In this document: positions 1-17,900 of the stretch, piece after piece
Layout of the letters: each line of letters starts with the position of its first letter
Numbering within the stretch: position 1 is the stretch's first letter
Assembly: GCA_017425345.1 (NCBI GenBank)
Contig: JAFOML010000032.1
Coordinates: 1-18,058 of the forward strand
DNA length: 18,058 bases
DNA from: Eubacterium sp.
GTDB lineage: Bacteria; Bacillota_A; Clostridia; Peptostreptococcales; Anaerovoracaceae
Reading direction: 5' to 3'
Notes under the pieces: model-generated
Databases searched by the model: none
What the model saw: only the letters and a program-made list of their open reading frames with translations
Told to the model about the DNA's origin: nothing
Program-made: the position numbers and the translations under genes

Positions 1-132
1 CAGGAGGAGAACCTCAAGCTACGGATCGAGAATGCATTTTTAAAAGAAGCGAGGAGGCTGCGTTTAGAGGAGGAAGCTCATCTGAACGAACTGCGAGAGT
101 CGTCCACAGTCTCCGAGGAGAATTCAAATTAA
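1..132 (+). CDS. IS3-family transposase OrfA, C-terminal end (partial)
   Basis: Frame 1 is open from the window edge to a TAA at 130-132 and encodes the last 43 residues, beginning QEENLKLRIENAFLKEARRL. The charged, leucine-spaced stretch fits the coiled-coil (leucine-zipper-like) tail of IS3 OrfA proteins, which multimerises OrfA and the OrfAB transposase. The N-terminal helix-turn-helix that would bind the terminal repeats is upstream of the window. The orfA tail overlaps the -1 frame that leads into orfB, and a slippery heptamer lies at 39-45. I call it on position, overlap and the Leu/Glu/Lys-rich pattern. Confidence 0.75.
   Translation, partial: QEENLKLRIENAFLKEARRLRLEEEAHLNELRESSTVSEENSN
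39..45 (+). promoter_or_regulatory. Programmed -1 ribosomal frameshift heptamer (T TTA AAA)
   Basis: Frame-0 codons of orfA read TTT TTA AAA GAA, which gives the X XXY YYZ heptamer T TTA AAA. Slipping back one base puts the ribosome in the orfB frame, which is open from position 3 to 974. IS3 elements make their active OrfAB transposase this way. I did not find a clear downstream stimulatory stem-loop or pseudoknot. Confidence 0.6.
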
Positions 133-974
133 AGGACATTCTCGCGGTAATCGGCTTCCCAAAGGCTACATACATGTACTGGCAAAAGCGCTTTGATCGT
201 GAAGATCCGGATGCGGAATTGCTTCATAAGATCAAGGAAATACGGAAAGAACATAAGGATTATGGCTATCGCAGGCTGTGGGGCGAACTAAGAAAACAAG
301 GCATCGAGGTGAACAAGAAGAAGGTCCATCGCATAGTTCAGAAGTATGGTCTGCAGGTCACTTCCTACACCAGAAAAAGCCGCAGATTCAGCACATACAA
401 GGGTGTTGTGGGAAGGATTTCTCCTAACAGAGTAAATAGAAGATTCAACACCTGCATTCCGCATCAGAAGATAACTACAGATACTTCTGAATTCAAGTAT
501 TATGAGCCAGATGAGAAAGGCAGAGTCACGATCAAGAAGCTATACCTCGATCCGTTCCTGGATCTTTGGAATCTTGAGGTTCTAAGTTATGGAGTATCCG
601 CCAGTCCTTCTGCCAATAGCATAATGACTGCACTTAACGAAGCTATCGATGTCACCAGCGACTGCAGGTACAGACGGACTTTCCATTCTGACCGCGGCTG
701 GGCATACCAAATGGGTGCTTACCGTCAAAAGCTGAAAGATAATCGAATCTTCCAAAGCATGTCCCGTAAAGGTAATTGTTACGACAACTCACCAATGGAG
801 AACTTCTTCGGGATCATGAAGCAAGAGATGTACTATGGGCGGGTTTATAGTAGCTTTGATGAACTGAAGGAAGCAATAGATAAATATATACGTTATTACA
901 ACGAGAAACGAAGCAAGCCCTCTCTTGGGTACAGGAGTCCAATCGAGTACCGGAATGAGATGCTTGCAGCATAG
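45..974 (+). CDS. IS3-family transposase OrfB (DDE integrase domain), made as OrfAB by frameshift
   Basis: This is the catalytic half of the IS3 transposase. An HTH_21-like stretch (IRKEHKDYGYRRLWGELRKQ) is followed by an rve/RNase H fold. Counting from the ATG at 174, the acidic triad is Asp103 (TTDTSEF), Asp173 (HSDRG) and Glu209 (SPMENFFG), with 35 residues between the last two, as expected for IS3 DD(35)E. The C-terminus has the usual YNEKRSKPSLGYRSPIEYR ending. The frame stays open upstream of 174 and encodes typical OrfB N-terminal residues (RVVHSLRGEFKLKDILAVIG). I therefore place the true coding start at the frameshift near 45, although internal initiation at 174 is possible. No frameshift or stop suggests decay. 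Confidence 0.92.
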   Translation, partial: RSEEAAFRGGSSSERTARVVHSLRGEFKLKDILAVIGFPKATYMYWQKRFDREDPDAELLHKIKEIRKEHKDYGYRRLWGELRKQGIEVNKKKVHRIVQKYGLQVTSYTRKSRRFSTYKGVVGRISPNRVNRRFNTCIPHQKITTDTSEFKYYEPDEKGRVTIKKLYLDPFLDLWNLEVLSYGVSASPSANSIMTALNEAIDVTSDCRYRRTFHSDRGWAYQMGAYRQKLKDNRIFQSMSRKGNCYDNSPMENFFGIMKQEMYYGRVYSSFDELKEAIDKYIRYYNEKRSKPSLGYRSPIEYRNEMLAA

Positions 975-4265: not shown

Positions 4266-4778
4266 TCAGTTTCCCTCTGCCAGATACCCTTTCGACTGGA
4301 GCATATCCTGAATCAGATCCAGGGTGTCCTCGTCCCGGGCTTCTACGGTATGGTAATGATAGCTTGAAGTCACATTTTTCAGGAGCTGCGACCGGCCGCT
4401 GTTCAGATCTTCAATAAAGGCATCGACCTTCCGTCTGGAATCGATGTTCAGTTCTCCTTCGATTCGGCCATATACCTTATGCCAGACGAAAACGTCCAGC
4501 ACGGTACCGCCGAGGTCCACGATCGAGAGAAGCTCATCCGCAGTCTGCTCATCCGTATGGCAGACCTTGAATACGCGGCGTTTCAAGCCGGACAGATTCA
4601 GGATATATCCACGGCTCGTCGAAAGGATATCATCTCCGGCAGCGCGGAGAAGCGCGATATCCTGTACGATCACCTGCCGGCTTACATCAAAAAGCTCCGC
4701 AAGCTTCCTTGCGGGAACCGGTTCGCTGCTCTGACGGAGCAGATTGATAATCTCTGTCCTGCGTTCTTCACCGACCAT
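4266..4778 (-). CDS. niaR: NiaR-type transcriptional repressor (HTH_11 plus 3H domain)
   Basis: The regulator has 170 residues. An N-terminal winged HTH (about 4-60, ERRTEIINLLRQ...LFDVSRQVIVQDI) precedes a 3H domain (about 68-168). The likely metal site is complete: His74, Glu82, His141 and His143. The spacing (8 between the first two, 2 between the last two) matches the nickel site known in the Thermotoga NiaR homologue. Family members bind nicotinic acid and repress niacin uptake and NAD synthesis genes. The reading frame extends upstream to 4922, but the ATG at 4778 has AGGAGG 7 nt before it and starts exactly at the HTH, so I chose it. The next gene downstream is an ABC exporter, not a niacin gene. 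The effector assignment rests on family knowledge only. Confidence 0.88.
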   Translation of the reverse strand: MVGEERRTEIINLLRQSSEPVPARKLAELFDVSRQVIVQDIALLRAAGDDILSTSRGYILNLSGLKRRVFKVCHTDEQTADELLSIVDLGGTVLDVFVWHKVYGRIEGELNIDSRRKVDAFIEDLNSGRSQLLKNVTSSYHYHTVEARDEDTLDLIQDMLQSKGYLAEGN

Positions 4779-4798
4779 CGCTTTTCCTCCTGCCACAT

Positions 4799-4828
4799 AT
4801 TCTATCACAGACCCATCCTGTTTTTCAA
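4799..4828 (-). promoter_or_regulatory. Promoter of the niaR-ABC exporter operon
   Basis: On the minus strand the -35 is TTGAAA (4823-4828) and the -10 is TAGAAT (4799-4804) with a TGa extension; the spacer is 18 bp. The -10 lies only 20 bp before the start codon, so transcription would begin just before or at the AGGAGG, giving a very short leader. I did not identify a convincing NiaR operator palindrome, though autoregulation is common in this family. Confidence 0.55.
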
Positions 4829-4893
4829 TGCTGCTGCAAAGGATTCCGCGCACCGAAAGAGCTTCTTTCATCAGAATCTTCTGTGGATGGAAA

Positions 4894-4920
4894 GAACCGG
4901 CGCAGATCCTGCGCCGGTTC
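4894..4920. terminator. Strong hairpin at the end of the GRE operon, probable terminator
   Basis: An 11-bp perfect stem (gaaccggcgca / tgcgccggttc) closes a 5-nt loop, 22 bp beyond the GRE stop codon. The T-tract on the minus strand is short (TTTCC). It is therefore a plausible but not ideal intrinsic terminator, and it could also act mainly as a 3' mRNA stabiliser. It separates the GRE operon from the niaR promoter. Confidence 0.55.
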
Positions 4921-4942
4921 ACGGTATTCCTGTTTTACTTTT

Positions 4943-7453
4943 TTAGAATGAAAGCTCTGTACGGTTGATCAGATCCATCTGAAGCGGCTTTCCCAGCTCG
5001 ACGAAATACGCGCTGTATCCCGCCACACGCACGAGCATATCCTTGTAATCCTCCGGCTTTTCCATCGCTGCCCGCATCGTAGCGGAACTCATGATGTTAA
5101 ACTGGCAGTGAGTAGCTGATCCCTGGAAGAACGTATCGATAAAGCTGATCAGGTTCTCTTTCCCCTGCTCGCCGACGACGCACTCAGGCGGGAACTTCCA
5201 GTTCAGCAGCGTGCCGTTCGTCGCTCTGGTATGATCCGCCTTGTTCACGGAGTTGGCGATCGCTGTCGGTCCGTTGACATCGTGAGAAGCTGCGCTGGTG
5301 TGCACCGGTCCCATGTTATCGGAGATTGGTTCCCCGGCTTTCCGGCCATCCAGCGATGCCGCGATGTCCGCGCCGAGGCTGACATTCGCATTGACGGTAT
5401 AGACGCCCGGCGTAAAGACGCCTCCACGCGCGTTCGGACGTCCGCCCACGTGATCGCAGTAGCTGTTAAAGACAGCCGTATAGAAGCGGTCTGCATAGTC
5501 GTCATCGTTGCCGAAATGATGGACTTTTGTGCTGTTGATCAGCGCATAGAGCACCTCATATCCGACCCAGTTATTCCGCATGGCATCCAGCAGCTCCGCG
5601 CCGGTATACTTATACTCATCGAAAACCAGCTGGCTGATTGCGGAAAGCGCATCTGCGCAGGAACCGATCCCGCTGGCCTGCGGTCCGGTAAAGTTATACG
5701 CTGCGCCGCCTGCGCTCAGGTCCTTTCCGCTCTTCATGCAGCTCCTGAACATCGAGGATGCGAGCGGTGTCGGCTTGATCTCCCGGTGGGCCACATCGAT
5801 GATATCGATCATGGAACACATCTGTTCCGTCCAGTAGGCGATCTGCGCATCGACGCTCTTCATCACATCGTCCATACTCTTTGCCGTTGCAAGCGATCCG
5901 GTATTCGGACCGAGCTGGCTCCCGGCTCCCGCGCACATCGGATATCTCGGACAGTGCGTGCTGCAGTCGATGCATCTGCCGCCGTTAAGCGCAAGCTCCA
6001 GAACCTTCATCAGGTTCATATATGCTGCATCGTGGAATCCGTATTCCTTTCCCGGAAGGTCCGGTTCCACACATCCTACGACCTCATATTCACGAGCCTC
6101 TTCCGGCGGCATGCCCTTCTTCTGCATGACCGCGATCGCTGTCGCGTCATTATACAGCTTGGGATGACCGTAACCAGCGCGGATACACTCCACGGTCTTT
6201 ACCTTCAGCTCGTATGGAGTATTCTCGTGTACGCGTACACAGAGCCACGGCACCATCATGCGCGTATGGACGGAAGCCTCCAGCAGCATGAAGGTCAGAT
6301 CGTTCGTCACATCGTTGCCCTCGCGGTCGACTCCGCCGACAGTCAGGCTTTCTCCGCCCCATCCGCGGCCGTTTCTGAACTTAGAGGACAGTCTGTTCTT
6401 CAGCTTAGAAGGGTTGCTGGCCTTGATATAGGCGCACTCAAGGAGCTCCTGCGCGAATTCCTTGGTAATGACCTGATTCTCCATATCATGCTTATAATAC
6501 GGATACAGCCACTGATCCATTCTTCCATAGGAGATAGAATGTCCGTTAGACTCGATCTCCACGACAGTCGTGGCAAAGTACCACAGCTGCAGCGCCTGCC
6601 ACATGGTCTCCGCAGGTCCCTTCTCGATCTGACGCAGGTTCGCTGCGATCTGTCTGAGCTCAAGACCGCGGACCGGATCAGATTCCCGGTCTGCCATCTC
6701 ATCCGCCAGCTTGCCGTAGCGGGAGATGAAGTGCTGTGTTGCCTGGATCTCGTACATCGCTGCAATGTAGAAATTGACGTGCTCCGCATAGTCCGGATCA
6801 TCCATGGAAAGCGACAGAATGCCCTCCTGCACTTCTTCCAGCAGTCCGTCGAAGCCGACCTCCAGCAGATGACCGTAGTCCAGCACGTAATGGCCGATTC
6901 CGGCATCGTGATACAGGCTGGTCAGGAAGACCTTCTTGCCGAGCTCGCTGCCCTTCGCCTGGTCCATGGAAATCTCGCGGTTGACCTTCGCAGAGACGGT
7001 CTTCCCGCGCCAGTACTGCAGGATGCGAATCAGCTCATCCTTATCTTCGTCTTTGATATAGAACTGATCATGAGGACGCTGGTCAAACGGATGATTCTCC
7101 AGCTCGTCGATGATCCATTCCACCGAAAACTCCGGATAGATCGGCGCCGCTTTGGCAGGCGCAGCGATCGTACCCACGATGAGCTCATCCGGATAGATCT
7201 CGATGTCGACGTTCGCCAGAATATGCTGCAGCGCATGCATGCAGCGCAGAATCTGCGGACGTCCCTCGGTCTTCATATAGCTTTCCGTCACAAGTCTGGC
7301 GCGCTGGATATCGATATTAAACGGCGCGTCCAGGAAGGTCTTCCTGAGACGGTTCACCCTGGGATACGGCGAGAACTCACCGTGTCCCACCTGATATCCG
7401 AGCCCGTAGCTCTTATCAAACGGCTCTGTTCCAATTGCTTTTGTATGTGTCAT
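4943..7453 (-). CDS. Glycyl radical enzyme (PFL-like; probable organosulfonate lyase or dehydratase)
   Basis: The protein has 836 residues, typical of PFL-like/diol-dehydratase-type GREs. An N-terminal PFL domain carries the family opening (RARLVTESYMKTEGRPQILR, about 51-70). The thiyl-radical Cys461 sits in VVGCVEPD with the usual Glu463. The C-terminal glycyl-radical loop RVAGYSAYF puts the radical on Gly812. Cys in CVEP rather than the PFL double Cys excludes pyruvate formate-lyase and points to the lyase/dehydratase clade (choline lyase, isethionate or dihydroxypropanesulfonate lyase, propanediol or hydroxyproline dehydratase). The start ATG overlaps the activase stop (ATGA) and has AAAGGA upstream, so the two genes are translationally coupled. 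Being last in an operon with tauCAB suggests a C2/C3 sulfonate substrate; this is inference. A Cys-rich insert (Cys494, 497, 501, 507) is unusual. By analogy with other GREs it should act in the cytoplasm. Confidence 0.93.
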   Translation of the reverse strand: MTHTKAIGTEPFDKSYGLGYQVGHGEFSPYPRVNRLRKTFLDAPFNIDIQRARLVTESYMKTEGRPQILRCMHALQHILANVDIEIYPDELIVGTIAAPAKAAPIYPEFSVEWIIDELENHPFDQRPHDQFYIKDEDKDELIRILQYWRGKTVSAKVNREISMDQAKGSELGKKVFLTSLYHDAGIGHYVLDYGHLLEVGFDGLLEEVQEGILSLSMDDPDYAEHVNFYIAAMYEIQATQHFISRYGKLADEMADRESDPVRGLELRQIAANLRQIEKGPAETMWQALQLWYFATTVVEIESNGHSISYGRMDQWLYPYYKHDMENQVITKEFAQELLECAYIKASNPSKLKNRLSSKFRNGRGWGGESLTVGGVDREGNDVTNDLTFMLLEASVHTRMMVPWLCVRVHENTPYELKVKTVECIRAGYGHPKLYNDATAIAVMQKKGMPPEEAREYEVVGCVEPDLPGKEYGFHDAAYMNLMKVLELALNGGRCIDCSTHCPRYPMCAGAGSQLGPNTGSLATAKSMDDVMKSVDAQIAYWTEQMCSMIDIIDVAHREIKPTPLASSMFRSCMKSGKDLSAGGAAYNFTGPQASGIGSCADALSAISQLVFDEYKYTGAELLDAMRNNWVGYEVLYALINSTKVHHFGNDDDYADRFYTAVFNSYCDHVGGRPNARGGVFTPGVYTVNANVSLGADIAASLDGRKAGEPISDNMGPVHTSAASHDVNGPTAIANSVNKADHTRATNGTLLNWKFPPECVVGEQGKENLISFIDTFFQGSATHCQFNIMSSATMRAAMEKPEDYKDMLVRVAGYSAYFVELGKPLQMDLINRTELSF

Positions 7454-8391
7454 TTTCCTTTTCCCGTTACACAGCAGATTCCCCTGTTCCGGAAATATGC
7501 TGTTATCTCTTTCAGTCTGGCATTTGCAGATTCCTGGTCGAGTTCCATTCCCGCCATAGGATATGGCCGTCCCAGAGACCTGTATTTCTCTTCCCCGAGC
7601 CGCATATAATTCAGAAGCTGCAGCTCCTGCACGGAGTTCCGAAGGTCCCCGGTAATAAAATCCGCAGTTTTCCGGATATTCTCCTCGTCGTCATTGATGC
7701 CGGGGATCACGGGGATGCGAAGGATCATGTCCTTGCCCGCCTCTGCCAGTTTTCTGGTGTTAAACAAAATCTTTTCGTTCGAAACACCGATATACTTCTG
7801 GTGTTTCTGCGGATCCATCATCTTCAGATCGGAGATAAAAAGATCCGTATGCGGCAGGACCAGATCGACCGCCGCTTCGTCCACGTGAAGCGCGCTCTCC
7901 ACGCAGGTGTGGATTCCTTCTTCATGGCACGCCTGAAGCAGCTCCGCTGCAAATGCCGCCTGCAGAAGGGGTTCGCCGCCGGAGACGGTCACACCGCCGC
8001 CCGACTGCTCATAATACGTCCGATCCTTTTTAATAATATCCATCAGTTCACGGACAGACATCAGATCGCCCCAGATGCGGATCGCTTCAGAAGGACAGGC
8101 ATCTGCCGCGCAGATCCATCTGTCCGTGCCGTCTGTGTGAATGGATTCTATCTTATCACCAGCGTCAAAAATAATCTGCGCGCCGGAATCCGCTTTCTCA
8201 CACAGGCCGCAGACACTGCGCCCGATGCAGCGGCTCGGATAAACGCCCGGCTCGCGCCGCGCTTTTAATCCTTCCGGATTGCTGCACCATCTGCAGGCGA
8301 GCGGACAACCTTTCAGAAAAATCTCTGTCCGAATGCCCGGCCCGTCGTGAACGGTGTATCGCTGTATGTTAAAAACGTTCCCTTTACTCAT
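7450..8391 (-). CDS. Glycyl-radical enzyme activating enzyme (radical SAM)
   Basis: The protein uses S-adenosylmethionine and a [4Fe-4S] cluster to place the radical on the adjacent GRE. Counting from the ATG at 8391 it has 313 residues. The radical SAM motif is C29-x3-C33-x2-C36 (GCPLACRWCSNPEG), preceded by the family opening YTVHDGPGIRTEIFLKGCPL. A ferredoxin-like insert follows (about 50-110), then the SAM-binding SGGEPLLQ (137-144). The insert has only five cysteines (55, 61, 64, 94, 99) where many GRE activases have eight. I prefer the start at 8391 over the upstream ATG at 8418 because family homology begins there. That ATG overlaps the last codons of the alcohol dehydrogenase (ATGAGTAA), and the stop overlaps the GRE start. 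Confidence 0.93.
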   Translation of the reverse strand: MSKGNVFNIQRYTVHDGPGIRTEIFLKGCPLACRWCSNPEGLKARREPGVYPSRCIGRSVCGLCEKADSGAQIIFDAGDKIESIHTDGTDRWICAADACPSEAIRIWGDLMSVRELMDIIKKDRTYYEQSGGGVTVSGGEPLLQAAFAAELLQACHEEGIHTCVESALHVDEAAVDLVLPHTDLFISDLKMMDPQKHQKYIGVSNEKILFNTRKLAEAGKDMILRIPVIPGINDDEENIRKTADFITGDLRNSVQELQLLNYMRLGEEKYRSLGRPYPMAGMELDQESANARLKEITAYFRNRGICCVTGKGK

Positions 8392-9511
8392 AGACTCTCT
8401 GGTAGAGTTCGCGTACATCTTCTTTTCCCATCGGATAGTACGCGTTATTTACGAGACGCATCTGATTCTCAAAAACAGATTCGGTAAACTCATCCAGATC
8501 GCTCTCCGTCGCTCCGTATTCCTTCAGAGTCTTCACCGGAAGCAGATACTCCTCTGCCTCCGCAAGAGTGCGGACAGCGTCCTTCTCGTCACCGCCGAGC
8601 ACGTCTGCGATCATCTGACGGAGTTCCTTCATTCTTCCGTCCGGATCATGCTCGTCATACATTCTGAGAGCTGCGTCGAAGAATGCGTAGTTCGCAGCGC
8701 CATGTGTCACGTGATACTTACCGCTCAGCGGATAAGAAACACCGTGTACAATACCGCATCCTGCGGTCAGGAAAGCGATGCCGGCATACATCGCAGCGGT
8801 CAGCATCTCTTCTGCGTACTCTTTCTGCAGGCTGGCTCCTTCCCCATACATCTTCAATGCGCGAAGAATGATCTCGATTGCGCCCTTGGCAAACAGATCC
8901 GAGGTCATGGTAGCGCGGCTCGGAGACAGGAAGCTCTCTGTCGCATGGATCAGCGCATCGAGGAGCGATTCCGCCATCGGACGAAGCGGAATGTCTTCCA
9001 GGAATTCCGGAATCAGGACCGCGGTATCTGCAATCAGCTTTTCATCCAGAAGACCCATCTTGGTGGTCCCACCATCTGCGGTATGTACATTGGCAACAGA
9101 AGTCATTGTGACCTCAGCGCCGGTTCCACAGGTCGTCGGGATGCAGACGAGCTGCTTCTCACGAACGATCTCCTCGCGGTGGAAAAACAGATCATTGACG
9201 CTCTTCGGTCTTCTTATCACGAACAGCTTTGCAATGTCCATAATGCTGCCGCCGCCGATCGCGATCACGCGGTCATAGGCGTCATAATCCGCAGCAGCAA
9301 ACATGCCGACGATCATCTCTTCAGAGGGTTCGCCTACGCCATAATCTTCCTGTACGATGCATCTGGCATCCGGGAGCACCGGATCGATATAGCGTTCTTT
9401 CAGATACGCGGTCGTCAGGATCAGGTCCTTCTCCCCCGTCTGAAAATCCTTAGCGAACTCCTCAAATGTGCCGAATTTAAAAATACCCGGCTTGATTAAT
9501 ATTTCTCTCAT
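8384..9511 (-). CDS. Iron-dependent alcohol dehydrogenase, 4-hydroxybutyrate dehydrogenase-like; possible sulfo-aldehyde reductase
   Basis: The protein has 375 residues and belongs to the group III Fe-ADH family. The NAD site is AIGGGSIMD (84-92), followed by PTTCGTGAEV (125-134). Metal ligands are Asp185, His189 (LLDALIHATES), His256 (GIVHG) and His270 (HVTHGAAN). By recall, the whole sequence tracks the clostridial 4-hydroxybutyrate dehydrogenase closely (EKYGLGEPSDEM-like segment, GNYHVPHGEANY-like segment). Succinic semialdehyde is a carboxylate counterpart of sulfoacetaldehyde and 3-sulfopropionaldehyde, and sulfonate-fermenting bacteria use Fe-ADHs (SarD, HpfD type) for those. With tauB 39 bp upstream and the GRE activase overlapping downstream, reduction of a sulfo-aldehyde with NADH is the favoured role. 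A genuine 4-hydroxybutyrate dehydrogenase remains the main alternative. The ribosome site is GGGGAGGG. Confidence 0.85.
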   Translation of the reverse strand: MREILIKPGIFKFGTFEEFAKDFQTGEKDLILTTAYLKERYIDPVLPDARCIVQEDYGVGEPSEEMIVGMFAAADYDAYDRVIAIGGGSIMDIAKLFVIRRPKSVNDLFFHREEIVREKQLVCIPTTCGTGAEVTMTSVANVHTADGGTTKMGLLDEKLIADTAVLIPEFLEDIPLRPMAESLLDALIHATESFLSPSRATMTSDLFAKGAIEIILRALKMYGEGASLQKEYAEEMLTAAMYAGIAFLTAGCGIVHGVSYPLSGKYHVTHGAANYAFFDAALRMYDEHDPDGRMKELRQMIADVLGGDEKDAVRTLAEAEEYLLPVKTLKEYGATESDLDEFTESVFENQMRLVNNAYYPMGKEDVRELYQRVYE

Positions 9512-9550
9512 ACTGACGTCCCTCCCCGTCTCTTTATTATTGTTATACTA

Positions 9551-10327
9551 TCAGGTTCTGATCAGATGCAGGATCTCTCTTCTGAGGTGCAGGTATTCTT
9601 CGCTGTACCGGAAATCCTCCTCACTGTCCTCAGCATTATTGGTAAAGTCCACATCAAATTCTTTAATGATCCTTCCGGGCAGTGCGGACATGGCGACCAC
9701 TCTCGTCGCGAGAGACAGCGCCTCATCAACGTCATGCGTGATCATCACAGCAGAACACTTGGTGCTCTTCCAGACCTTTCGGATCAGATCCTGCATGGAA
9801 GTTCTGGTGAAAGCGTCCAGCGCGCCAAACGGCTCGTCGAGCAGGATCAGGATCGGATCGTTGACCAGCGCTCTCGCGAGCGCAGCTCTCTGCCGCATGC
9901 CGCCGGAAAGCTCATACGGCTTGGAATGCGCGAACTTCTCCAATCCTACGAGTTCGATGAACTCCTTGGTTCTGCGTTCAGTCTCCGCGGATTTGATCCC
10001 GCGCACCTTAGGTCCGAACGCGATGTTATTATATACGTCCATCCAGGGGTAAAGTGTCGGCTGCTGAAAAACGACTGCGCGTCTCGGGTCGATGCCTGTC
10101 ACAGGCTCACCGAGCATCGTGACGGATCCTTCCGTCGCTTCCAGAAGACCTCCCATCACGTTCAGCAGCGTACTCTTGCCGCATCCTGACGGGCCTAAGA
10201 TACACACAAAATCTCCATCGTTCACATCAAGCGAGACATTATCAAGTGCCAATGTCTCGGCTGAGTCATTGGCACCCTGATATCTGACGCTCAGTGATCG
10301 GATTGACATGATCGTCTTATCACTCAT
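9551..10327 (-). CDS. tauB: Taurine/sulfonate-type ABC transporter, ATPase subunit
   Basis: This is the cytoplasmic ATPase of a TauABC/SsuABC-type importer, 258 residues. Motifs are Walker A GPSGCGKST (45-53), Q-loop FQQPTLYPWMDVYNNIAFG, signature LSGGMRQRAALARAL, Walker B ILILLDEPFGALD and a switch histidine in VMITHDVDEAL. The Q-loop with TLYPWMDV-type residues and the GALD are characteristic of the nitrate/sulfonate/taurine ABC family. It starts 5 bp after the tauA stop. The family assignment is firm, while taurine itself is only the best guess among sulfonates. Confidence 0.92.
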   Translation of the reverse strand: MSDKTIMSIRSLSVRYQGANDSAETLALDNVSLDVNDGDFVCILGPSGCGKSTLLNVMGGLLEATEGSVTMLGEPVTGIDPRRAVVFQQPTLYPWMDVYNNIAFGPKVRGIKSAETERRTKEFIELVGLEKFAHSKPYELSGGMRQRAALARALVNDPILILLDEPFGALDAFTRTSMQDLIRKVWKSTKCSAVMITHDVDEALSLATRVVAMSALPGRIIKEFDVDFTNNAEDSEEDFRYSEEYLHLRREILHLIRT

Positions 10328-10332
10328 TGTCT

Positions 10333-11388
10333 TTATTTTCCCTCTTCTTCTAATTCTTTCAGCGCCTGTTCCAGATAGCTCGTGTCGATCTTGCTCTTGA
10401 AGAAGTCAACGTCCTTCGCATCCTCGATCTGACCGTTGTCCTGGAGGAACTTCGCAACCTGATACAGGTTATTTGCAGCGTTGTCGCTTCCAAAGCAGTC
10501 ATCCGTCATCTGATCTTCCAGAGTCGGGTAAATGTCGCTCATCTGCTCCTTGACTACATCGACATCCAGTTCCAGTCTGTCGGCTGCCATCTGGAGAGCG
10601 GTGTCCTGATCATCTCTAAAGAGGACTGCGCCCTTCTGGACTGCCTTCAGGAATGCTACGACCTGTTCCGGATTCTCTTCCGCATAAGAAGATCTGACTA
10701 CATAGAAATTATACGTGGAATGACCCTTCTTTGCAAGGTCTTCTACCGTCAGCAGAACTTTTCCGCCGCTGTTCTTCAGATTGATCAGGGTCGGGTTCCA
10801 GGTGTAGGCGACATCGATGTCACCACGCTGCCATGCGGAGTTGATCGCATCCGGCTGCATATCGATGATCTCGATATCGTCTGCAGACATTCCTTCATCT
10901 TCCAGCGCGCAGAGCAGTCCGTAATGACCGGAGGAAGCCAGTGTGCATCCGACCTTCTTACCCTTCAGATCCTTTACGGATTTGATCCCTGCATCTTCTC
11001 TGACGACCAGACCTTCCGTACCCTGAATACGGGTCGCGATATAGATGACCTTATAGTCAACGCCGCTGGTCAGACCGGTTACGACCGGGCAGATTCCGAA
11101 AGCGCCGCCGAAGTCAGCACTGTCTGCCTTCAGAGCGTTGTTGATATCTCTTCCGGATGTGAAGTTCTCTACGGAAGTGCCTTCTGCCATCAGTTCTTCA
11201 AAATATCCGCCTGCCTTGGACACGGTGCAGGTGTCGGAAAGATCCTGTGTCGCGAAGATCGCCGGAGCTCCTGCGCCTTCTGCGGAGCCTGCTGCAGATC
11301 CGGCACCGTTATCGCTTCCGCCACATGCAGTCATCATTACAGCAAGTGCTGCTGCAGCTGCCACAACGAGTAATTTCTTCATCTTCAT
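10333..11388 (-). CDS. tauA: Taurine/sulfonate-binding lipoprotein of the ABC importer
   Basis: This is the extracellular substrate-binding protein, 351 residues. A lipoprotein signal ends in MMTAC with Cys22 as the lipidation site, followed by a Ser/Gly/Ala linker. The mature part resembles E. coli TauA in several stretches recalled from memory, notably SGHYGLLCALEDEG, DIEIIDMQPDAINSAWQRGD and VAYTWNPTLINLKNSGGKVL. Of the nitrate/sulfonate/bicarbonate-binding families, the combination AWQRGDID with AYTWNP favours TauA. The start has AAGGAG 8 nt upstream; a second ATG two codons in is possible. The gene sits between tauC (61 bp upstream) and tauB. This protein gives the strongest evidence that the operon handles an organosulfonate. 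Confidence 0.9.
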   Translation of the reverse strand: MKMKKLLVVAAAAALAVMMTACGGSDNGAGSAAGSAEGAGAPAIFATQDLSDTCTVSKAGGYFEELMAEGTSVENFTSGRDINNALKADSADFGGAFGICPVVTGLTSGVDYKVIYIATRIQGTEGLVVREDAGIKSVKDLKGKKVGCTLASSGHYGLLCALEDEGMSADDIEIIDMQPDAINSAWQRGDIDVAYTWNPTLINLKNSGGKVLLTVEDLAKKGHSTYNFYVVRSSYAEENPEQVVAFLKAVQKGAVLFRDDQDTALQMAADRLELDVDVVKEQMSDIYPTLEDQMTDDCFGSDNAANNLYQVAKFLQDNGQIEDAKDVDFFKSKIDTSYLEQALKELEEEGK

Positions 11389-11449
11389 AATTTCGTCTCC
11401 TTTATACCCTTATACTCATACAATTGACGATAACTATTCTTTCTCTGAA

Positions 11450-12295
11450 TTAAAGCTTACCCTTCCACGGAACGACTTTCTTCTCCGTTGTGCGGAGGAT
11501 ATAGTCGAACACGATACCTGTGATGCCCATTACAATGATGCCAGCGAAAATGATGTCACTTCTCAGCCAGTTACTTGCATCCAGAACGACCCAGCCGATT
11601 CCGGAGGAAGCAGCTACCATCTCAGCTGCGACCAGCGTCGTATAGCCATGTCCGAACGCGGTGCGGACTCCGGTAAAGATGTCCGGCGCAGTGTACGGAA
11701 GGATCACCTTCCAGAACATCTGGCTGTCGTTTGCTCCAAGCGTTGCCGCTACATTCGTGTAAGCTTCCGGAATCTTAACGACCGATGCCACACATGCAAC
11801 GTAGATTGCAGGGAAGCAAGCCAGATAAAGCAGCATGATCTTGGATCCGTCGCCGATACCGAGCCACATTACGATGACGGTATAGTATGCGAGAGGCGGA
11901 AGCGGACGGATGAACTCGATGATCGGTTCCATCGCCGCGCGGATCTTCCGATTCATTCCGCTGAGAAGTCCAATTGGAATTGCCGTTACAACGGCAAGGA
12001 AGAATGCAGTGAACAGACGGTAGAAGCTTCCTCCCAGGTGCTGCCACAGAGTATTCCCCTTATATCCATCCGTAGCCATACCGGTGAGTGCTGACCATAC
12101 CGCGCTGATAGAAGGAACGACCTTGGCCTCCTCCAGCATTCCCGCTGCGGATGCAGCGATCCAGATCAGAAAAAAGATCCCTACTGTCAGACAGGAAATC
12201 AGAAAACTTGTATTTCTCTTCTTTCCCGGCATTTTTTCCTGTTTCTTTTCTACCGTATTCATTCTAATACCCGCTTTGTTTAAAATGTATTCCAT
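11450..12295 (-). CDS. tauC: Taurine/sulfonate-type ABC transporter, permease subunit
   Basis: This is the inner-membrane permease, 281 residues, first gene of the operon. A charged N-terminal tail (1-30) is followed by about six hydrophobic segments (roughly 31-52, 92-112, 135-147, 153-172, 218-238, 248-266). The EAA loop that docks the ATPase is at about 182-201 (VAATLGANDSQMFWKVILPY). ASNWLRSDIIFAGIIVMG near the C-terminus matches the SsuC/TauC pattern. AGGTGG lies 7 nt before the ATG at 12295, which decides the start over the in-frame ATG at 12262. A near-consensus promoter lies about 50-80 bp upstream. Confidence 0.9.
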   Translation of the reverse strand: MEYILNKAGIRMNTVEKKQEKMPGKKRNTSFLISCLTVGIFFLIWIAASAAGMLEEAKVVPSISAVWSALTGMATDGYKGNTLWQHLGGSFYRLFTAFFLAVVTAIPIGLLSGMNRKIRAAMEPIIEFIRPLPPLAYYTVIVMWLGIGDGSKIMLLYLACFPAIYVACVASVVKIPEAYTNVAATLGANDSQMFWKVILPYTAPDIFTGVRTAFGHGYTTLVAAEMVAASSGIGWVVLDASNWLRSDIIFAGIIVMGITGIVFDYILRTTEKKVVPWKGKL

Positions 12296-12346
12296 CTCAT
12301 AACCACCTGTTTATATAATTATAACTGTTTACAAATACTTGAATAT

Positions 12347-12375
12347 ATGATATAGTCTTTTCGTAAGAATGTCAA
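12347..12375 (-). promoter_or_regulatory. Sigma-A promoter of the tauCAB-ADH-activase-GRE operon
   Basis: On the minus strand the -35 is a perfect TTGACA (12370-12375) and the -10 is TATCAT (12347-12352), with an ideal 17-bp spacer. The resulting leader is about 45 nt, AT-rich, with no obvious riboswitch or attenuator. Such a strong promoter implies repressor control when the substrate is absent. Confidence 0.75.
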
Positions 12376-12380
12376 CAGAT

Positions 12381-12393
12381 TTTGTTCAACAAA
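12381..12393. promoter_or_regulatory. Perfect palindrome in the divergent control region, candidate operator
   Basis: TTTGTT-C-AACAAA is a 6-1-6 perfect inverted repeat, 5 bp upstream of the -35 of the tau operon and 31 bp before the aldehyde dehydrogenase start. That position suits a regulator that activates or represses both directions. No regulator gene for it lies in the window, and a 13-bp AT-rich palindrome can arise by chance. Confidence 0.4.
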
Positions 12394-12424
12394 CTGCATA
12401 ATTTTTGAATTAGGAGTATTAAAA

Positions 12425-13852
12425 ATGGAAATGCTGATCAATGGTAAACACACAGGCAGCCTCAGTGGCCAGACGATGGATGTATACGATCCGTACCGCG
12501 GAACCGTACTCGATACGGTCCCCAGAGCAACTGAGGCAGATCTCGACCTGGCTCTCGATGCTGCGAAGGAAGCACAGAAAGAATGGAAGAAAGTTCCGGT
12601 ACATCAGAGAGCTGCTATCCTCATGAAGTTCGTGGAGCTGGTGCAGGCAAACAAACAGTCTCTCGCAGAGACACTCTGCAGAGATAACGGAAAACCGATC
12701 ACACAGGCTCTTGGAGAGATCGGGAATATTCAGACGGTCGTCCCCGCCTTTGTGGAGAAGGCCAAACACTTCTATGAGACGGTAGTCCCTGCCGGCCTGG
12801 AGTCCGGACAGGAAAATGCTATCCAATATATAAAACGTGAACCGGTAGGCGTCGTTGCCTGCATTATTCCCTTCAACTTCCCTTCTAATTTATTTTGTCA
12901 GAAGGTCATGCCCTCTCTGCTGATGGGAAATGCGGCGCTGGTTTTGCCCCCGTCGGGGAATCCGCTGACAGTCATGAGACTCTGCGACCTTCTCGCGGAA
13001 GCCGGAATCCCGGCTGGCGTTATCCAGTGTGTCACCGCTCCGGGAGCCATGAAGGAATATGCGGTCCGCGATCCGAGAACGGACTTCATCTCTCTGACCG
13101 GAAGCACCGAAACCGGCGTCCGCACGGCGCAGGTTGCAGCTGCGAGCCTCAAGCCTTACGCGCTTGAGCTGGGCGGCAACGATCCGTTCGTCGTCTTTGA
13201 AGATGCGAACATGGATATTGCTGTCGGTGAGATCTTCGGCGGCCGCCTGACGAACTCCGGACAGATCTGCTGCGCCTGTAAGCGCTTCCTGATCCACAGA
13301 AGCCGCCTTGCGGAGTTCACGGAAAAGACGCTCGCTATGGTAAACTCTCTGAAGATCGGTGATCCGATGGATCCGTCCACACAGATCAGCTGCCTGATCA
13401 ATGAGAAGGAAGCGATCACGGTCGAAGAGCAGGTCAAGCACACCCTTTCCCAGGGCGGCAGACTGCTCTGCGGCGGCGAACGCAAAGGAACCCATTATGC
13501 GCCTACCGTCATCGCGGATGTGACGCCGGACATGGATATCGCCTCTGATCTGGAAGTGTTCGGTCCAGTTATCCCGATCATCCCCTTCGATACCATGGAG
13601 GAAGCGATCGAGATCGCGAACAACTCGATCTACGGACTGTCCAGCTGCGTGTTCACGGAGAACATGCATACCGTGAAAAAGATGGTCGATGCTTTTGAAG
13701 CCGGAAATGTGATCGTCAATTCTGCTTCCCGTCTGCGCACCTTCGAGATGCCGTTCGGCGGATGGAAGATGAGCGGCGTCGGCACGGAAGGCGTCATGGT
13801 CACCTTCAACGAGGTGACGAAGCCAAAGGTCGTCGTGCTCACCAATCTTTAA
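12425..13852 (+). CDS. NAD(P)-dependent aldehyde dehydrogenase (ALDH superfamily)
   Basis: The protein has 475 residues, full length for a non-acylating ALDH that oxidises an aldehyde to its acid in the cytoplasm. Catalytic residues are all visible: oxyanion Asn151 (PFNFP), general base Glu248 (LELGGND) and nucleophile Cys282 in SGQICCACKR. Nucleotide-fold motif LTGSTETG is at 224-231, and the C-terminal FGGWKMSGVG is normal. The usual coenzyme-binding Lys of the KP(S/P)x motif is replaced: the segment reads ALVLPPSGNP, with Leu174 at that place. Retaining Glu248 argues against a CoA-acylating enzyme. GGAG lies 8 nt before the start. It diverges from the sulfonate operon across a 129-bp shared control region, so an acidic aldehyde from that pathway is the likely substrate; succinic semialdehyde is the plain alternative. 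Confidence 0.9.
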   Translation: MEMLINGKHTGSLSGQTMDVYDPYRGTVLDTVPRATEADLDLALDAAKEAQKEWKKVPVHQRAAILMKFVELVQANKQSLAETLCRDNGKPITQALGEIGNIQTVVPAFVEKAKHFYETVVPAGLESGQENAIQYIKREPVGVVACIIPFNFPSNLFCQKVMPSLLMGNAALVLPPSGNPLTVMRLCDLLAEAGIPAGVIQCVTAPGAMKEYAVRDPRTDFISLTGSTETGVRTAQVAAASLKPYALELGGNDPFVVFEDANMDIAVGEIFGGRLTNSGQICCACKRFLIHRSRLAEFTEKTLAMVNSLKIGDPMDPSTQISCLINEKEAITVEEQVKHTLSQGGRLLCGGERKGTHYAPTVIADVTPDMDIASDLEVFGPVIPIIPFDTMEEAIEIANNSIYGLSSCVFTENMHTVKKMVDAFEAGNVIVNSASRLRTFEMPFGGWKMSGVGTEGVMVTFNEVTKPKVVVLTNL

Positions 13853-13916: not shown

Positions 13917-15074
13917 TCAGACTTCTCCTCTAAGCCGCTTGACTAACCTGTCGCTGATCAGATCTTCCCATTCCACGACCTCGATCCCAAGCTCCGATGC
14001 GCGCATGCGCATAAGCGACCGGCTCTTCGTCACCGGCGCGGAGGTCACGATCATCGCGCGGGATCCCCTCCCGCCGAACCGATCCCGTAGGATCGCCAGT
14101 TCGTTGAGAGCAGGCGTTACGATCTCATTCGTTTTACAGCTGATGAACATCGGCCGTACCCCTTCGACAGCCATCACGTCGATCTCATTTGTCACAGCAT
14201 TTCGCTGTGTCAGGCCGCCGTCCCAGTTGACGACCGCGCTGAGGACCACATCATCAAAGCATCCTGCCTCGAGGCACGAACAGTATACCTTGAGTTCCAG
14301 CACGGAACCGATATCCCGAAGCCAGAACCGGACTGTCTCATCCGGGAACCGGAACTGCACCTGGTCGCCTCTGGTTTCCAGATTCAGGATCAGGCGTTTT
14401 TCCGCAAGGCTGACGAGAAGTCCTTCATCCACCGTAACCATGCCCTGATCCACCCGGACGGTACGTTCTCCGGAAGCGGTCAGAACACCCTCCTCTGAGG
14501 AGGAGATCGCCTGAATATAGCCGATCTGCCTGCGCCAGATCCGGCGGTACTTCTGAAACACCGAAAACAGATCATCGATCTGCGGGAGCTTCTCCTTCAG
14601 GATCTGATTGTCCTCTCTGCCCGGAAGCAGCGTTCCGCCGGCCATCAGAAAACAGGACATGGCATCCAGCTTGACATTGCACGGCAGATCCCGTGCAAAC
14701 GGAGCATTTTTGATCTCAAAGAAGGAATTACGCTTCCGGCTATACGTATACACGGCAGCCTTTCCGCTGACGGCTCCGGCTGCAAAAAGAGCAGCATCGG
14801 TACCGCCCGCAATATCGATCGCGCAGTCTTCTCTTGTGTCCAGTACATTCTGCAGCTGTTTTTCAATCTTGGCCGCATCCAGCAGACTCACCGGGATGAT
14901 GGTCAGTTTGACCGGGCACTTGCGATACTGAAAATACTTCGTCAGAGTTTCTTTCAGCGCGCTTTTCTTCACTTCCGGCGGGCAGAGGATCACGGTCTCT
15001 TCCGGGCGGAACACCTCAGTCCCCAGCACGTTTTCGATCGGCCGCTCATCATATAATTCGATCAAAGTCTTCAT
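13917..15074 (-). CDS. CARF-domain DUF1887 protein, Card1/Can2-like PD-(D/E)xK nuclease
   Basis: The protein has 385 residues, close to the size of characterised Card1-type proteins. The N-terminal CARF-like half starts TLIELYDERPIENVLGTEVF and has the ligand-loop motif DIAGGTDAALFAAG (87-100). A linker of about 150-245 leads to a restriction-endonuclease-like domain with Glu260 (SVLELKVY), Asp299 (NEIDVMAV) and Lys314 (FISCKT), followed by ALNELAILRDRFGG. Known relatives bind cyclic tetra-adenylate made by type III CRISPR complexes and cut DNA and/or RNA. No cas gene or CRISPR array is present here, so the signal source is unknown. The residue two before Lys314 is Ser312, not Glu or Asp. It starts 13 bp behind the class V PLP enzyme gene with GGAG 8 nt before the ATG, so the two form an operon. 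Confidence 0.83.
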   Translation of the reverse strand: MKTLIELYDERPIENVLGTEVFRPEETVILCPPEVKKSALKETLTKYFQYRKCPVKLTIIPVSLLDAAKIEKQLQNVLDTREDCAIDIAGGTDAALFAAGAVSGKAAVYTYSRKRNSFFEIKNAPFARDLPCNVKLDAMSCFLMAGGTLLPGREDNQILKEKLPQIDDLFSVFQKYRRIWRRQIGYIQAISSSEEGVLTASGERTVRVDQGMVTVDEGLLVSLAEKRLILNLETRGDQVQFRFPDETVRFWLRDIGSVLELKVYCSCLEAGCFDDVVLSAVVNWDGGLTQRNAVTNEIDVMAVEGVRPMFISCKTNEIVTPALNELAILRDRFGGRGSRAMIVTSAPVTKSRSLMRMRASELGIEVVEWEDLISDRLVKRLRGEV

Positions 15075-15087
15075 CTAATCATCTCCA

Positions 15088-16560
15088 TCAGTACTCCGGC
15101 ACCGCCACGATGTATTCCTCGACATCCTTTTTCGCTTCTTCCACGGCTTTTGGCAGGATCTCCAGGAACTCATCCACCTCTTCTTCCGTATTATAGATTC
15201 CGAAGCTTATACGGATCATTCCCGGTGTGTTGACATCCGAGCACTCTGCAAACCCGTGGACCTCCTCATCCGAGATCCCCATCAGTCTCCACACATACGG
15301 ATTGGCGCAGAACGCGCCTCTTCTGGTCGCGATGCCATAGTAGTTTGACAGGCGCTGCGCCAGGACGTAGGAATTCAGATCGCTGAAATTAAACGTCACG
15401 ACGCCGACGCGGTCGTCGATATTCTCAGTATCACCGTACAGGATAATGTTATCCATCTTCTTCAGTCCGTCGATCAGCTTGCGGTTCAGCACCTTCTCGT
15501 GCTCTTCGATCTGATCGAATCCGACCTCCTGCAGAATGTCAATCGCCTTTCCGAGACCGACCACACCCGGATAATTCGGGGATCCGGCCTCATAGCGCTT
15601 CGGTACTTCCGCATAGCTCTGCCAGTCATCTCCGACGATCTGGATGGTGCCGCCGCCGTAAAACTCCGGCATGTGCTTTCTCATGATGTTGATTTTGCCA
15701 ACAACAGCGCCTCCGCCGTAAGGCGAGTACATCTTATGCGCAGAGAAGACGAAAAAGTCGATATCCTCCGCCCGGGTCTTTCCCTTCATCGAGAACTGCC
15801 GGTGAGCGACGATCTGCGCGCCGTCGACGATGATCTTCGCGCCGTATTTATGCGCCAGCTTCGCGACGCGGTGCACGTCCGTCACGTAGCCGGTCACGTT
15901 CGAAGCGGCTGTGACGGTGACATATTTCACCTTGTTCTTCTTCAGCAGCTTCTCAAGATCGCCGTACTTGACGCGTCCCTGCTTGTCAACCTCCGCATAG
16001 ATGACCTTCGCCCGCTCTCTCCACGGCAGGTCGTTCGAGTGGTGCTCGATGCGGGTCGCCAGAATCAGGTCGCCCTTCTTCACCAGCGCAGAGGCCAGCT
16101 TGTTCAGGCCGTCCGTGGTGTTATTGACGTAGAAGCAGGTGTACTTTTCCGGATTCGCATTGACAAAATCCAGTACCTTATCCTTCGTATTCTCATAGAT
16201 TTCCGTCGAATGGTTCGATTTCGGCGAAAAGCCTCGTCCAATCGATCCATACTCCGCAAACTCCTTGTCGACCTCCTCCATGACCGGGCGCAGCACCGGA
16301 GTCGTCGCCGCGTTGTCAAAATTGATGACCGTCTTTTCCGTTCCGTCCTCCAGCGTCATCGGTTCATCGATCCCGACGATATAGTCCCGGATATTGTCCA
16401 GCGAATAGTCGCCGGCGGTATCCGAAGATTCTGCCGCAGAAGACGGTTCCGCCGCAGCGCTGCCACCCTCGCCTGCCCCGCTGACACACGCGGTCAGAAG
16501 ACAAATACTCAGGGCTGCGATCAGAAGCAGATACTCTATGATCCTGACACTCTTCCTCAT
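15088..16560 (-). CDS. Class V PLP-dependent aminotransferase/cysteine desulfurase-fold protein with lipoprotein signal
   Basis: The protein has 490 residues. Residues 1-25 form a lipoprotein signal peptide (charged start, hydrophobic core, lipobox LTAC with Cys25), followed by a Ser/Ala/Gly linker to about 50. The rest is a complete class V fold: FDNAATTP (81-88), His173 and Asn176 (EHHSND), Asp246 (VDGAQ), the PLP lysine Lys276 (FSAHKMYSPYGG) and a possible persulfide Cys418 (RRGAFCANPY). Members normally use cysteine, selenocysteine or other amino acids in the cytoplasm, so an exported form is unexpected. AGGAGG 6 nt upstream supports the start that includes the signal. It follows the ammonia-lyase gene by 43 bp and precedes the CARF nuclease gene by 13 bp. 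The fold is certain; substrate and true location are not. Confidence 0.85.
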   Translation of the reverse strand: MRKSVRIIEYLLLIAALSICLLTACVSGAGEGGSAAAEPSSAAESSDTAGDYSLDNIRDYIVGIDEPMTLEDGTEKTVINFDNAATTPVLRPVMEEVDKEFAEYGSIGRGFSPKSNHSTEIYENTKDKVLDFVNANPEKYTCFYVNNTTDGLNKLASALVKKGDLILATRIEHHSNDLPWRERAKVIYAEVDKQGRVKYGDLEKLLKKNKVKYVTVTAASNVTGYVTDVHRVAKLAHKYGAKIIVDGAQIVAHRQFSMKGKTRAEDIDFFVFSAHKMYSPYGGGAVVGKINIMRKHMPEFYGGGTIQIVGDDWQSYAEVPKRYEAGSPNYPGVVGLGKAIDILQEVGFDQIEEHEKVLNRKLIDGLKKMDNIILYGDTENIDDRVGVVTFNFSDLNSYVLAQRLSNYYGIATRRGAFCANPYVWRLMGISDEEVHGFAECSDVNTPGMIRISFGIYNTEEEVDEFLEILPKAVEEAKKDVEEYIVAVPEY

Positions 16561-16590: not shown

Positions 16591-16620
16591 ATTGTATCAT
16601 GCGTTACTGCAGTAAAGCAA
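16591..16620 (-). promoter_or_regulatory. Candidate internal promoter for the class V enzyme and CARF gene pair
   Basis: On the minus strand an extended -10, TGaTACAAT (-10 hexamer at 16591-16596), lies 30 bp before the start codon. A -35, TTGCTT (16615-16620), with an 18-bp spacer overlaps the last codons of the ammonia-lyase gene. It would let the two downstream genes be transcribed without the first. Confidence 0.5.
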
Positions 16621-17794: not shown

Positions 17795-17900
17795 AAGGCG
17801 CCTCATTTCTATTTCCTATTTCCCATATATGCGTCGATCTCCCGCATCCGTTCGTTCTGTAATATTTTCTCATATTCCTGGCATCATTGCAAACAGTTAA

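Follow-up and report, generated by a model that had tools for sequence, protein, structure and literature searches.

A probable DHPS fermentation cluster combining an HpfG-type glycyl radical dehydratase with a TauABC-type importer and unusual aldehyde-converting partners

2,3-Dihydroxypropane-1-sulfonate (DHPS), a sulfonate of plant and algal origin, is formed abundantly in the metabolism of sulfoquinovose and of diatoms. Among the described systems closest to the locus presented here, the HpfGHD sets of Klebsiella oxytoca and Hungatella hathewayi comprise a glycyl radical enzyme (GRE), its activase and an iron-dependent alcohol dehydrogenase (Fe-ADH) acting on an aldehyde. A bifurcated pathway has been published for Enterococcus gilvus which combines HpfD with an acylating HpfX and ATP-forming HpfYZ, splitting 3-sulfopropionaldehyde into 3-hydroxypropanesulfonate and 3-sulfopropionate (PMC11489063). 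The same source also reports a non-acylating 3-sulfopropionaldehyde dehydrogenase in the homotaurine metabolism of Cupriavidus, a direct NAD(P)-dependent conversion to 3-sulfopropionate in which the aldehyde arises from homotaurine by transamination (PMC11489063). Other relatives are the sulfonate lyases HpsG and IslA/IseG, which share the GRE fold, and the taurine importer TauABC of Escherichia coli.

The locus lies in an 18,058-nucleotide stretch of DNA, hereafter the window, and consists of the following features:

4943..7453, minus strand: hpfG, GRE read as a (2S)-3-sulfopropanediol (DHPS) dehydratase (NF048009, 1391.8 bits; trees; active-site map)
7450..8418, minus strand: hpfH-like glycyl radical activase of the radical SAM type (NF048008, 436.7 bits; PF04055)
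8384..9511, minus strand: Fe-ADH (PF00465/PF25137; near Cvir-Hbd2)
9551..10327, minus strand: tauB-like importer ATPase (NF008421, 237 bits, below the cut-off of 357)
10333..11388, minus strand: tauA-like lipoprotein substrate-binding protein (TIGR01729, 173.5 bits, below the cut-off of 304)
11450..12295, minus strand: tauC-like importer permease (NCBIfam TauC NF007545, 210.8 bits, below the cut-off of 342)
12296..12424: intergenic stretch of 129 nt separating the divergent tauC and aldehyde dehydrogenase genes, holding two promoter-like sites that overlap (consensus matches only)
12425..13852, plus strand: divergent, hydrolytic (non-acylating) aldehyde dehydrogenase, ALDH (PF00171; Cys282, Glu248; module conservation)

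The six-gene run at 4943..12295 that a sequence-only reading had described was recovered with all its open reading frames contiguous on the minus strand, in the order tauC-tauA-tauB-FeADH-activase-GRE, the family of all six genes being backed by NCBIfam and that of the four scanned with Pfam (GRE, activase, Fe-ADH and TauA) by the latter as well. The first three gaps measure 61, 5 and 39 nt, and the overlaps announced at the last two junctions are present, 35 nt as called between Fe-ADH and activase (shrinking to 8 nt with an activase start at codon 10, the second Met) and 4 nt between activase and GRE. The single strong promoter proposed upstream held up only in part: a TTGACA-17-TATCAT site matching the consensus at 11 of 12 positions (12375-12347, minus strand) is the best of 13 found by a pattern scan of the whole window, but it is suggestive only, as the count equals that expected by chance from shuffled sequence (13.0, sd 4.4) and the scan is thus no proof. 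It is overlapped by a divergent 10/12 site (12328-12356, plus strand). Neither an Rfam nor a tRNA search gave matches in the window.

Sequence comparisons favour reading the GRE as HpfG, a DHPS C-O dehydratase, rather than as a C-S lyase. It passed the HpfG equivalog model NF048009 (cut-off 1000) and failed the HpsG model NF048011, scoring 487 bits against a cut-off of 1000. The former cut-off is loose, since it also admits, at 1012-1050 bits, three GREs of a group at 47% identity (one from locus L013 and two from L018), none of which has the H182/R360/R363 signature discussed below. Phylogeny pointed the same way, as the sequence-only reading had asked to be checked: a quick tree placed the window GRE within the HpfG clade (branch value 100), from which diol dehydratases were excluded and HpsG was distant, and a second tree also put it among HpfG. 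In these trees rows were called HpfG by model score, with glycerol dehydratase (GD) and HpsG included for comparison. The 25 HpfG rows compared came from 13 loci (L001-L012 and L024) and from 12 of at least 120 protein matches; neither the residue counts nor the trees include the truncated GRE of L021, that of L020, which is split in two, or the broken hpfG of L019, whose genome is represented in the trees by its intact copy L069. L023 duplicates the L010 gene and was removed. From 17 HpsG matches, eight loci were aligned; four of these entered the quick tree, as did eight of the nine sequences making up the 47% group. The alignments exclude GREs with lower scores (L041-L044 and L053-L058).

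The active site resembles that of a diol dehydratase. All 25 HpfG rows carry the GD residues at H188, H305, S306, E463, D475 and C461 (window numbering), positions at which HpsG has Q, T, I or T, E, G and C, respectively. In GD numbering, H164, H281, S282, C433, E435, D447 and G763, which we take to be the residues of 1,2-diol C-O dehydration, are identical in the window and in 25/25 HpfG rows, while each of the eight HpsG rows differs from GD at H164, H281, S282 and D447. Counting against this reading, two further GD residues, N156 and Y339, are replaced by L180 and G367 in the window and throughout the 25 rows. The window GRE also carries the signature H182, R360 and R363, which is specific to HpfG rows (25/25, 25/25 and 24/25). 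Structure comparison, another proposed check, ranked glycerol and diol dehydratases first for the predicted GRE. The AlphaFold model (20 sequences, mean pLDDT 78, pTM 0.84) is uninformative on the proposed sulfonate pocket, because the loop bearing R360 and R363 (residues 357-364) has a pLDDT below 50.

These residues bear on the idea of a C-S cleavage like that of isethionate sulfite-lyase, as in taurine or isethionate respiration, which the taurine type of the importer might suggest and which we regard as scarcely credible. At the GD H164 and D447 positions, where HpsG has Gln and Gly, the window GRE has the diol-dehydratase residues His188 and Asp475. Four positions before His188 stands Ala184, not Arg; if His188 corresponds to Gln193 of IslA, an equivalence presumed from the HpsG Gln column, Ala184 would fall at Arg189, both IslA residues being sulfonate-binding. 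The fold distance also speaks against such a lyase, IslA having been compared by fold only and HpsG differing in both active-site residues and clade. Of the substrates that had been listed as candidates, DHPS fits the HpfG reading; isethionate, and likewise a sulfonate new to GREs, were set aside as unlikely on the HpsG residue comparison, the tree and the fold.

The window HpfG nevertheless belongs to a subclade apart from that of the HpfGs scoring highest against NF048009, to which it is about 60-62% identical among the matches listed. This would leave room for a related substrate, another hydroxysulfonate or a diol, handled by HpfG-like chemistry, a reading that we consider improbable: the active-site and signature positions that were mapped are common to both subclades, and loci L010 and L011, whose HpfGs reach 1593-1599 bits, carry the same tauCAB and ALDH module as the window.

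The partner enzymes depart further from described HpfGHD sets. The activase found its best NCBIfam model in HpfH (NF048008) without reaching the cut-off of 500, and by this score is HpfH-like only. The Fe-ADH is of another class than HpfD, judging by its ~31-33% identity to the HpfD-type ADHs of L001, L009 and L019 (so labelled from cluster layout, as lactaldehyde-reductase/ErcA-type Fe-ADHs) and by its 115-123 bits in models where these reach 322-340. Its nearest PDB sequence is 30sm, Cvir-Hbd2 (282 bits), and 3-sulfopropionaldehyde is the sulfonate analogue of succinic semialdehyde. On sequence grounds, we propose it as a 3-sulfopropionaldehyde reductase replacing HpfD. Genomes G005, G006, G888 and G896 carry a window-type Fe-ADH at 63-67% identity, and a search at E 1e-80 found no HpfD-type ADH in these four.

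The divergently transcribed ALDH belongs to the gene set as its seventh member. The sequence-only reading had noted the absence of an acetylating aldehyde dehydrogenase, which is right as to type but overlooks this non-acylating enzyme. It carries Cys282 and Glu248, presumably the catalytic Cys and the hydrolytic general base. The Glu is missing from the acylating ALDH of L019, assigned as HpfX from its layout and family, with which the window enzyme shares 20% identity; a CoA-acylating HpfX identity was rejected on both counts. We propose that the window ALDH may act as a hydrolytic 3-sulfopropionaldehyde dehydrogenase, comparable in its reaction to that of Cupriavidus. No HpfYZ occurs among the window genes, and an HpfY query returned none of 11 related genomes, with the control genome G011 positive. 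The L019 cluster, comparable to the bifurcated HpfGHD-HpfXYZ pathway, adjoins a DASS-like transporter, in contrast to the ABC importer of the window.

These two dehydrogenases could also serve another route, in which HpfG would make 3-sulfopropionaldehyde while Fe-ADH and ALDH oxidise DHPS through sulfolactaldehyde to sulfolactate, in the manner of DhpA and SlaB, sending electrons to the HpfG branch. Known DHPS-degradation enzymes do include DhpA and SlaB, a relative of the ALDH at 57% identity bears the UniRef name 3-sulfolactaldehyde dehydrogenase, and in G888 and G896 tauCAB-ALDH-FeADH lies separate from hpfHG. Against this stand the kinship of the Fe-ADH with Cvir-Hbd2, the lack of any known reductase that 3-sulfopropionaldehyde would then face in genomes combining the window-type Fe-ADH with no HpfD-type ADH at E 1e-80, and the missing SuyB-type partner: no member of the GD_AH_C family occurs in G001, G005, G006 or G896, and its matches in G007 and G888 are frames of 501 and 491 aa, taken for altronate-dehydratase size. 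The route is weakened by the GD_AH_C result, and we hold it to be unlikely.

The importer shares with TauABC of E. coli its family, gene set and residues Q30, G61, G79 and E106, and the nearest PDB sequence to TauA is the taurine-binding protein 6ssy. A taurine-specific identity is nonetheless not supported, as all three proteins fall short of the taurine equivalog cut-offs and Asn227 replaces Asp205, the taurine-amine-binding residue of E. coli TauA, a change found in 9/9 sequences; Thr132 is also replaced by Ser. An Asn at this position suits a hydroxysulfonate, which would be a fitting TauA substrate.

Together, tauCAB and ALDH adjoin hpfHG in 5 of the 27 hpfG loci read, one per genome (the window, L001, L010, L011 and L012), and stand apart from hpfG in G888 and G896, both with hpfG elsewhere, so that the module may also work alone. 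L001 has an HpfD-type ADH in place of the window-type Fe-ADH, and no Fe-ADH occurs near L012, L003 or L004, the last two being also without tau genes. The tau genes at L071/L072 are distant (TauB 40-43%), have the setting alone in common and were not counted with the close module. ALDH neighbourhoods were read at 14 places chosen from the matches, one of which (L080) does not extend far enough for any to be seen. With 22 of the 27 loci lacking an adjoining close tauCAB, and NitT/TauT importers being common, a taurine importer for sulfur nutrition might have landed by chance beside unrelated hpfHG. We judge this very improbable: the arrangement with hpfHG recurs in two distant HpfG lineages, no sulfonate oxygenase was found among the window genes scanned (NCBIfam, Pfam), and an ALDH of at least 60% identity was present in 4 of 16 hpfG-bearing genomes vs 0 of 579 others (two family samples). 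The module tree and the HpfG tree conflict, suggesting that the module was re-paired with HpfG, and its pairing with two distant lineages argues for a functional link.

We thus favour, with a probability of roughly two in three, a DHPS fermentation module combining TauABC-type import, HpfGH dehydration, Fe-ADH reduction and hydrolytic ALDH oxidation. In an anaerobic Firmicute-type bacterium with a gut- or rumen-type cluster, the importer would take in (S)-DHPS and HpfH would generate the radical at Gly812 of HpfG (the presumed glycyl radical site), in which a thiyl radical at Cys461 (likewise presumed, as in the family) would start C-O dehydration to 3-sulfopropionaldehyde. The Fe-ADH, with its 4-hydroxybutyrate-dehydrogenase-like kin, would reduce this aldehyde to 3-hydroxypropanesulfonate and the ALDH would oxidise it directly to 3-sulfopropionate. 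The predicted split resembles that of Enterococcus gilvus, with a hydrolytic ALDH in place of CoA-acylating HpfX and ATP-forming HpfYZ, and the net process would be a disproportionation in redox balance that bypasses the CoA/ATP step of that branch. ABC import costs ATP and the disproportionation would yield none, an energetic point that counts against a DHPS module.

Most likely, the cluster is a known radical enzyme (HpfG) with unusual partner enzymes, a variant of a known pathway and no new kind of enzyme. We see an even chance that it represents a modular anaerobic DHPS disproportionation lacking a CoA/ATP step, in which a DHPS-specific ATP-driven importer and HpfGH join a 4-hydroxybutyrate-dehydrogenase-like reductase and a hydrolytic dehydrogenase for 3-sulfopropionaldehyde, put together with each of two HpfG lineages, a combination not found in the literature searched. 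The product chosen by a fermenter matters, since Bilophila wadsworthia is reported to be able to respire 3-sulfopropionate to H2S and not 3-hydroxypropanesulfonate (PMC11489063). If true, this pathway would supply 3-sulfopropionate to sulfidogens, at an energy cost to the fermenter, and would constitute a CoA-free second route to this compound, missed by screens requiring HpfYZ. In addition, an identifiable DHPS importer would set scavengers of free DHPS apart from sulfoquinovose degraders.

The six contiguous minus-strand genes proposed by the sequence-only reading, tauC-tauA-tauB-FeADH-activase-GRE (4943-12295), were recovered as ORFs at the coordinates and in the order it had claimed, with overlaps of 35 and 4 nt at the last two junctions, where it had placed them, and gaps of 61, 5 and 39 nt at the others (ORF calls). 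Pfam scans identified PF02901 and a glycyl radical domain in the glycyl radical enzyme (GRE), a radical SAM domain in the activase, PF00465/PF25137 in the iron alcohol dehydrogenase (Fe-ADH) and an NMT1 domain in TauA, while the family assignment of TauB and TauC is based on NCBIfam. The row is flanked by the following features:

12425-13852, plus strand: aldehyde dehydrogenase (ALDH, PF00171), divergent, its start 129 nt from tauC
4266-4922: downstream regulator with HTH_11 and 3H domains (Pfam scan) and its own promoter-like site
3-974, plus strand: frame cut off by the window edge, by eye resembling an IS3-type transposase
13917-15074, minus strand: gene between the ALDH and a PLP lipoprotein; its match to a Card1-like endonuclease domain is weak (PF09002, 28.6 bits, cut-off 26.4)
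15088-16560, minus strand: class V PLP enzyme, similar to SufS and selenocysteine lyase, whose N-terminus bears a lipoprotein signal (LLTAC)
16604-17806, minus strand: diaminopropionate ammonia-lyase-like PLP enzyme adjoining the lipoprotein (NF006058, 474.5 bits against a cut-off of 276)

The regulator, whose domains we take to be NiaR-like, and the ABC exporter behind it were taken as separate from the cluster. The class V PLP enzyme is apparently exported and lipidated, a simple lipobox test being passed by 88 of 120 homologues among the matches listed; an extracytoplasmic location is odd for a desulfurase-like enzyme.

The cluster of the window is judged to be a genuine HpfG cluster whose partner genes are unusual. 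A genome-contig scan yielded 22 GRE loci, 13 of them taken as HpfG-like (L001-L012, L019), and HpfG exceeded the cut-off of its model NF048009 in 2/398, 10/247 and 10/348 genomes of the phylum and family samples. Regions were retrieved for 14 genomes with HpfG above 1200 bits (one being the L019 genome again), so that 27 hpfG loci were read, each genome once and window included, some on short contigs. Close tauCAB genes adjoin hpfHG (GRE and activase) at five loci (window, L001, L010, L011, L012) and a distant NitT/TauT set at two (L071, L072). Hydrolytic ALDHs occur at eight (window, L001, L003, L004, L005, L010, L011, L012), that of L005 being a fragment at a contig edge, and HpfX-type ALDHs at four (L019/L069, L065, L068, L070), where no hydrolytic ALDH was seen. 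The module, tauCAB plus hydrolytic ALDH, is accompanied by a window-type Fe-ADH at the window, L010 and L011 and by an HpfD-type ADH at L001, with no Fe-ADH nearby at L012.

The GREs of L013-L018, L022 and L026 are 44-48% identical to the window GRE (L026 excluded from the figure); nine aligned rows of this group keep the diol-dehydratase residues and miss the HpfG signature H182/R360/R363, and some members exceed the NF048009 cut-off and may be misnamed HpfG. GREs of L041-L044 and L053-L058, outside these rows, score similarly (951-1091 bits). In Clostridiales VE202-21, the hpfG copy at L019 (2844-5331) is split over two frames and an hpfY copy (G011:C70:44071-45165) contains four in-frame TAG codons, but that contig also carries intact hpfG and hpfY at other positions.

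L019 served as comparison locus (HpfH-HpfG-transporters-acylating ALDH-CoA ligase subunits-Fe-ADH), its HpfX, HpfY, HpfZ and HpfD labels being assigned in this analysis; its order is similar to that of the E. gilvus cluster in the available part of PMC11489063. The window Fe-ADH is not HpfD-like: it scores 115-123 bits with the ErcA and lactaldehyde-reductase models, versus 322-340 bits for the ADHs of L001, L009 and L019. Its closest solved relative is Cvir-Hbd2 (30sm, 282 bits), by its name a 4-hydroxybutyrate dehydrogenase, and D185, H189, H256 and H270 preserve an Asp-His...His...His pattern, presumably the metal-site motif. The window ALDH is 50-68% identical to the ALDHs adjoining hpfHG in L001, L003, L004, L010, L011 and L012 and only 20% identical to the L019 acylating ALDH, which misses the equivalent of Glu248; Cys282 and Glu248, whose roles we assume, Glu248 as general base, are both present in the window enzyme.

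The gene set, its families, the residues, the co-occurrence and the re-pairing of module and HpfG are direct observations, whereas we infer DHPS as the substrate, the directions of the reactions, the two products and, from its relatives, the type of organism. The 3-sulfopropionaldehyde formed by HpfG would be reduced by the 4-hydroxybutyrate-dehydrogenase-like Fe-ADH and oxidised by the hydrolytic semialdehyde-type ALDH, giving 3-hydroxypropanesulfonate and 3-sulfopropionate; since this aldehyde is the sulfonate analogue of succinic semialdehyde, both enzyme types would fit. Non-acylating oxidation has a precedent in the 3-sulfopropionaldehyde dehydrogenase of Cupriavidus homotaurine metabolism, as described in the discussion of PMC11489063. 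Against this role of the ALDH speaks a 57% relative that UniRef names 3-sulfolactaldehyde dehydrogenase. There is no support for sulfolactate cleavage, because GD_AH_C, which we take to be the family of altronate dehydratase and SuyB, was absent from 7 of 11 genomes and its four matches in the others lie in 489-528-aa frames.

Concerning the missing ALTERNATIVES, the HpfY query matched none of 11 module or relative genomes, the positive control G011 having worked. HpfD-type ADHs (E 1e-80 or better) occurred in 4 of 17 genomes (G011, G945, G1047, G001). None was found at this threshold in G005, G006, G888 and G896, which carry window-type Fe-ADHs at 63-67%, nor in nine more genomes with hpfG. 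Either there must be further reductases, then, or these genomes are not complete.

TauA residues were mapped by alignment to E. coli TauA, with roles from the available part of PMC6906117, where Q30, G61 and G79 are sulfonate contacts and the hinge residue E106, like D205, binds the taurine amine. Q30, G61, G79 and E106 are conserved in the window (Q48, G79, G98, E125), whereas T132 and D205 are replaced by Ser153 and Asn227. Asn occupies the D205 position in all nine TauAs of this setting, two of distant type included, and E125 is retained solely in the seven close ones. The loss of Asp205 fits a hydroxysulfonate, not an aminosulfonate, as ligand; the retained Glu is neutral on this point.

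The same type of module occurs with two HpfG lineages, and this speaks for a functional partnership between module and HpfG. G896 (L105) repeats the gene order of the window, FeADH-tauB-tauA-tauC plus a divergent ALDH, without adjacent hpfHG, and G888 (L106) has a rearranged form, likewise apart; their hpfG lies on other contigs (L063, L062). Window and L105 are joined in the TauCAB (support 97/100) and ALDH (100/99) trees, while the G896 HpfG groups with L010/L011, in another clade than the window HpfG. Grouping window, P0002, P0003 and L063 HpfGs was rejected (p-AU 6e-30), as was uniting all five tau-linked HpfGs in a single clade (6e-10), values that are indicative, the groups having been named after the first tree had been seen. 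ALDHs of at least 60% identity occur in 4 of 595 sampled genomes (G001, G005, G888, G896), all among the 16 with HpfG above 1200 bits (samples of equal size, same genome handles); minus the two centre genomes, chosen for having HpfG, this is 2/2 (chance 5e-4), both looking like close G005 relatives in the HpfG tree. In G1102, where hpfHG lies by the distant tau set, an ALDH (53%) adjoins an Fe-ADH (40%) at another locus (L114). Eight of nine loci with distant ALDHs (54-57%; L107-L112, L115-L117) pair them with a FIST-like protein by eye (L107-L111, L115-L117; Pfam-confirmed for L108 only), most with an IclR-like regulator, also by eye; therefore only the close ALDH subgroup is tied to HpfG.

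Within the available parts of the HpfG/DHPS literature, including PMC11489063, PMC12330013, PMC12890257, PMC9594981, PMC11659671 and PMC13219744, neither a TauABC importer nor a hydrolytic ALDH was found together with HpfG, and 'TauA' has 0 occurrences in those of these texts searched for the term. However, the DHPS-conversion protein models of PMC12330013 include a succinate semialdehyde dehydrogenase, and the neighbourhood survey of PMC11489063 gathered PF00171 neighbours of HpfG, so that hydrolytic ALDHs next to HpfG may already have come to notice. The importer costs ATP, yet the pathway branches yield none; their products could serve other fermentations by balancing NADH, as described for HpfGHD in PMC12330013.
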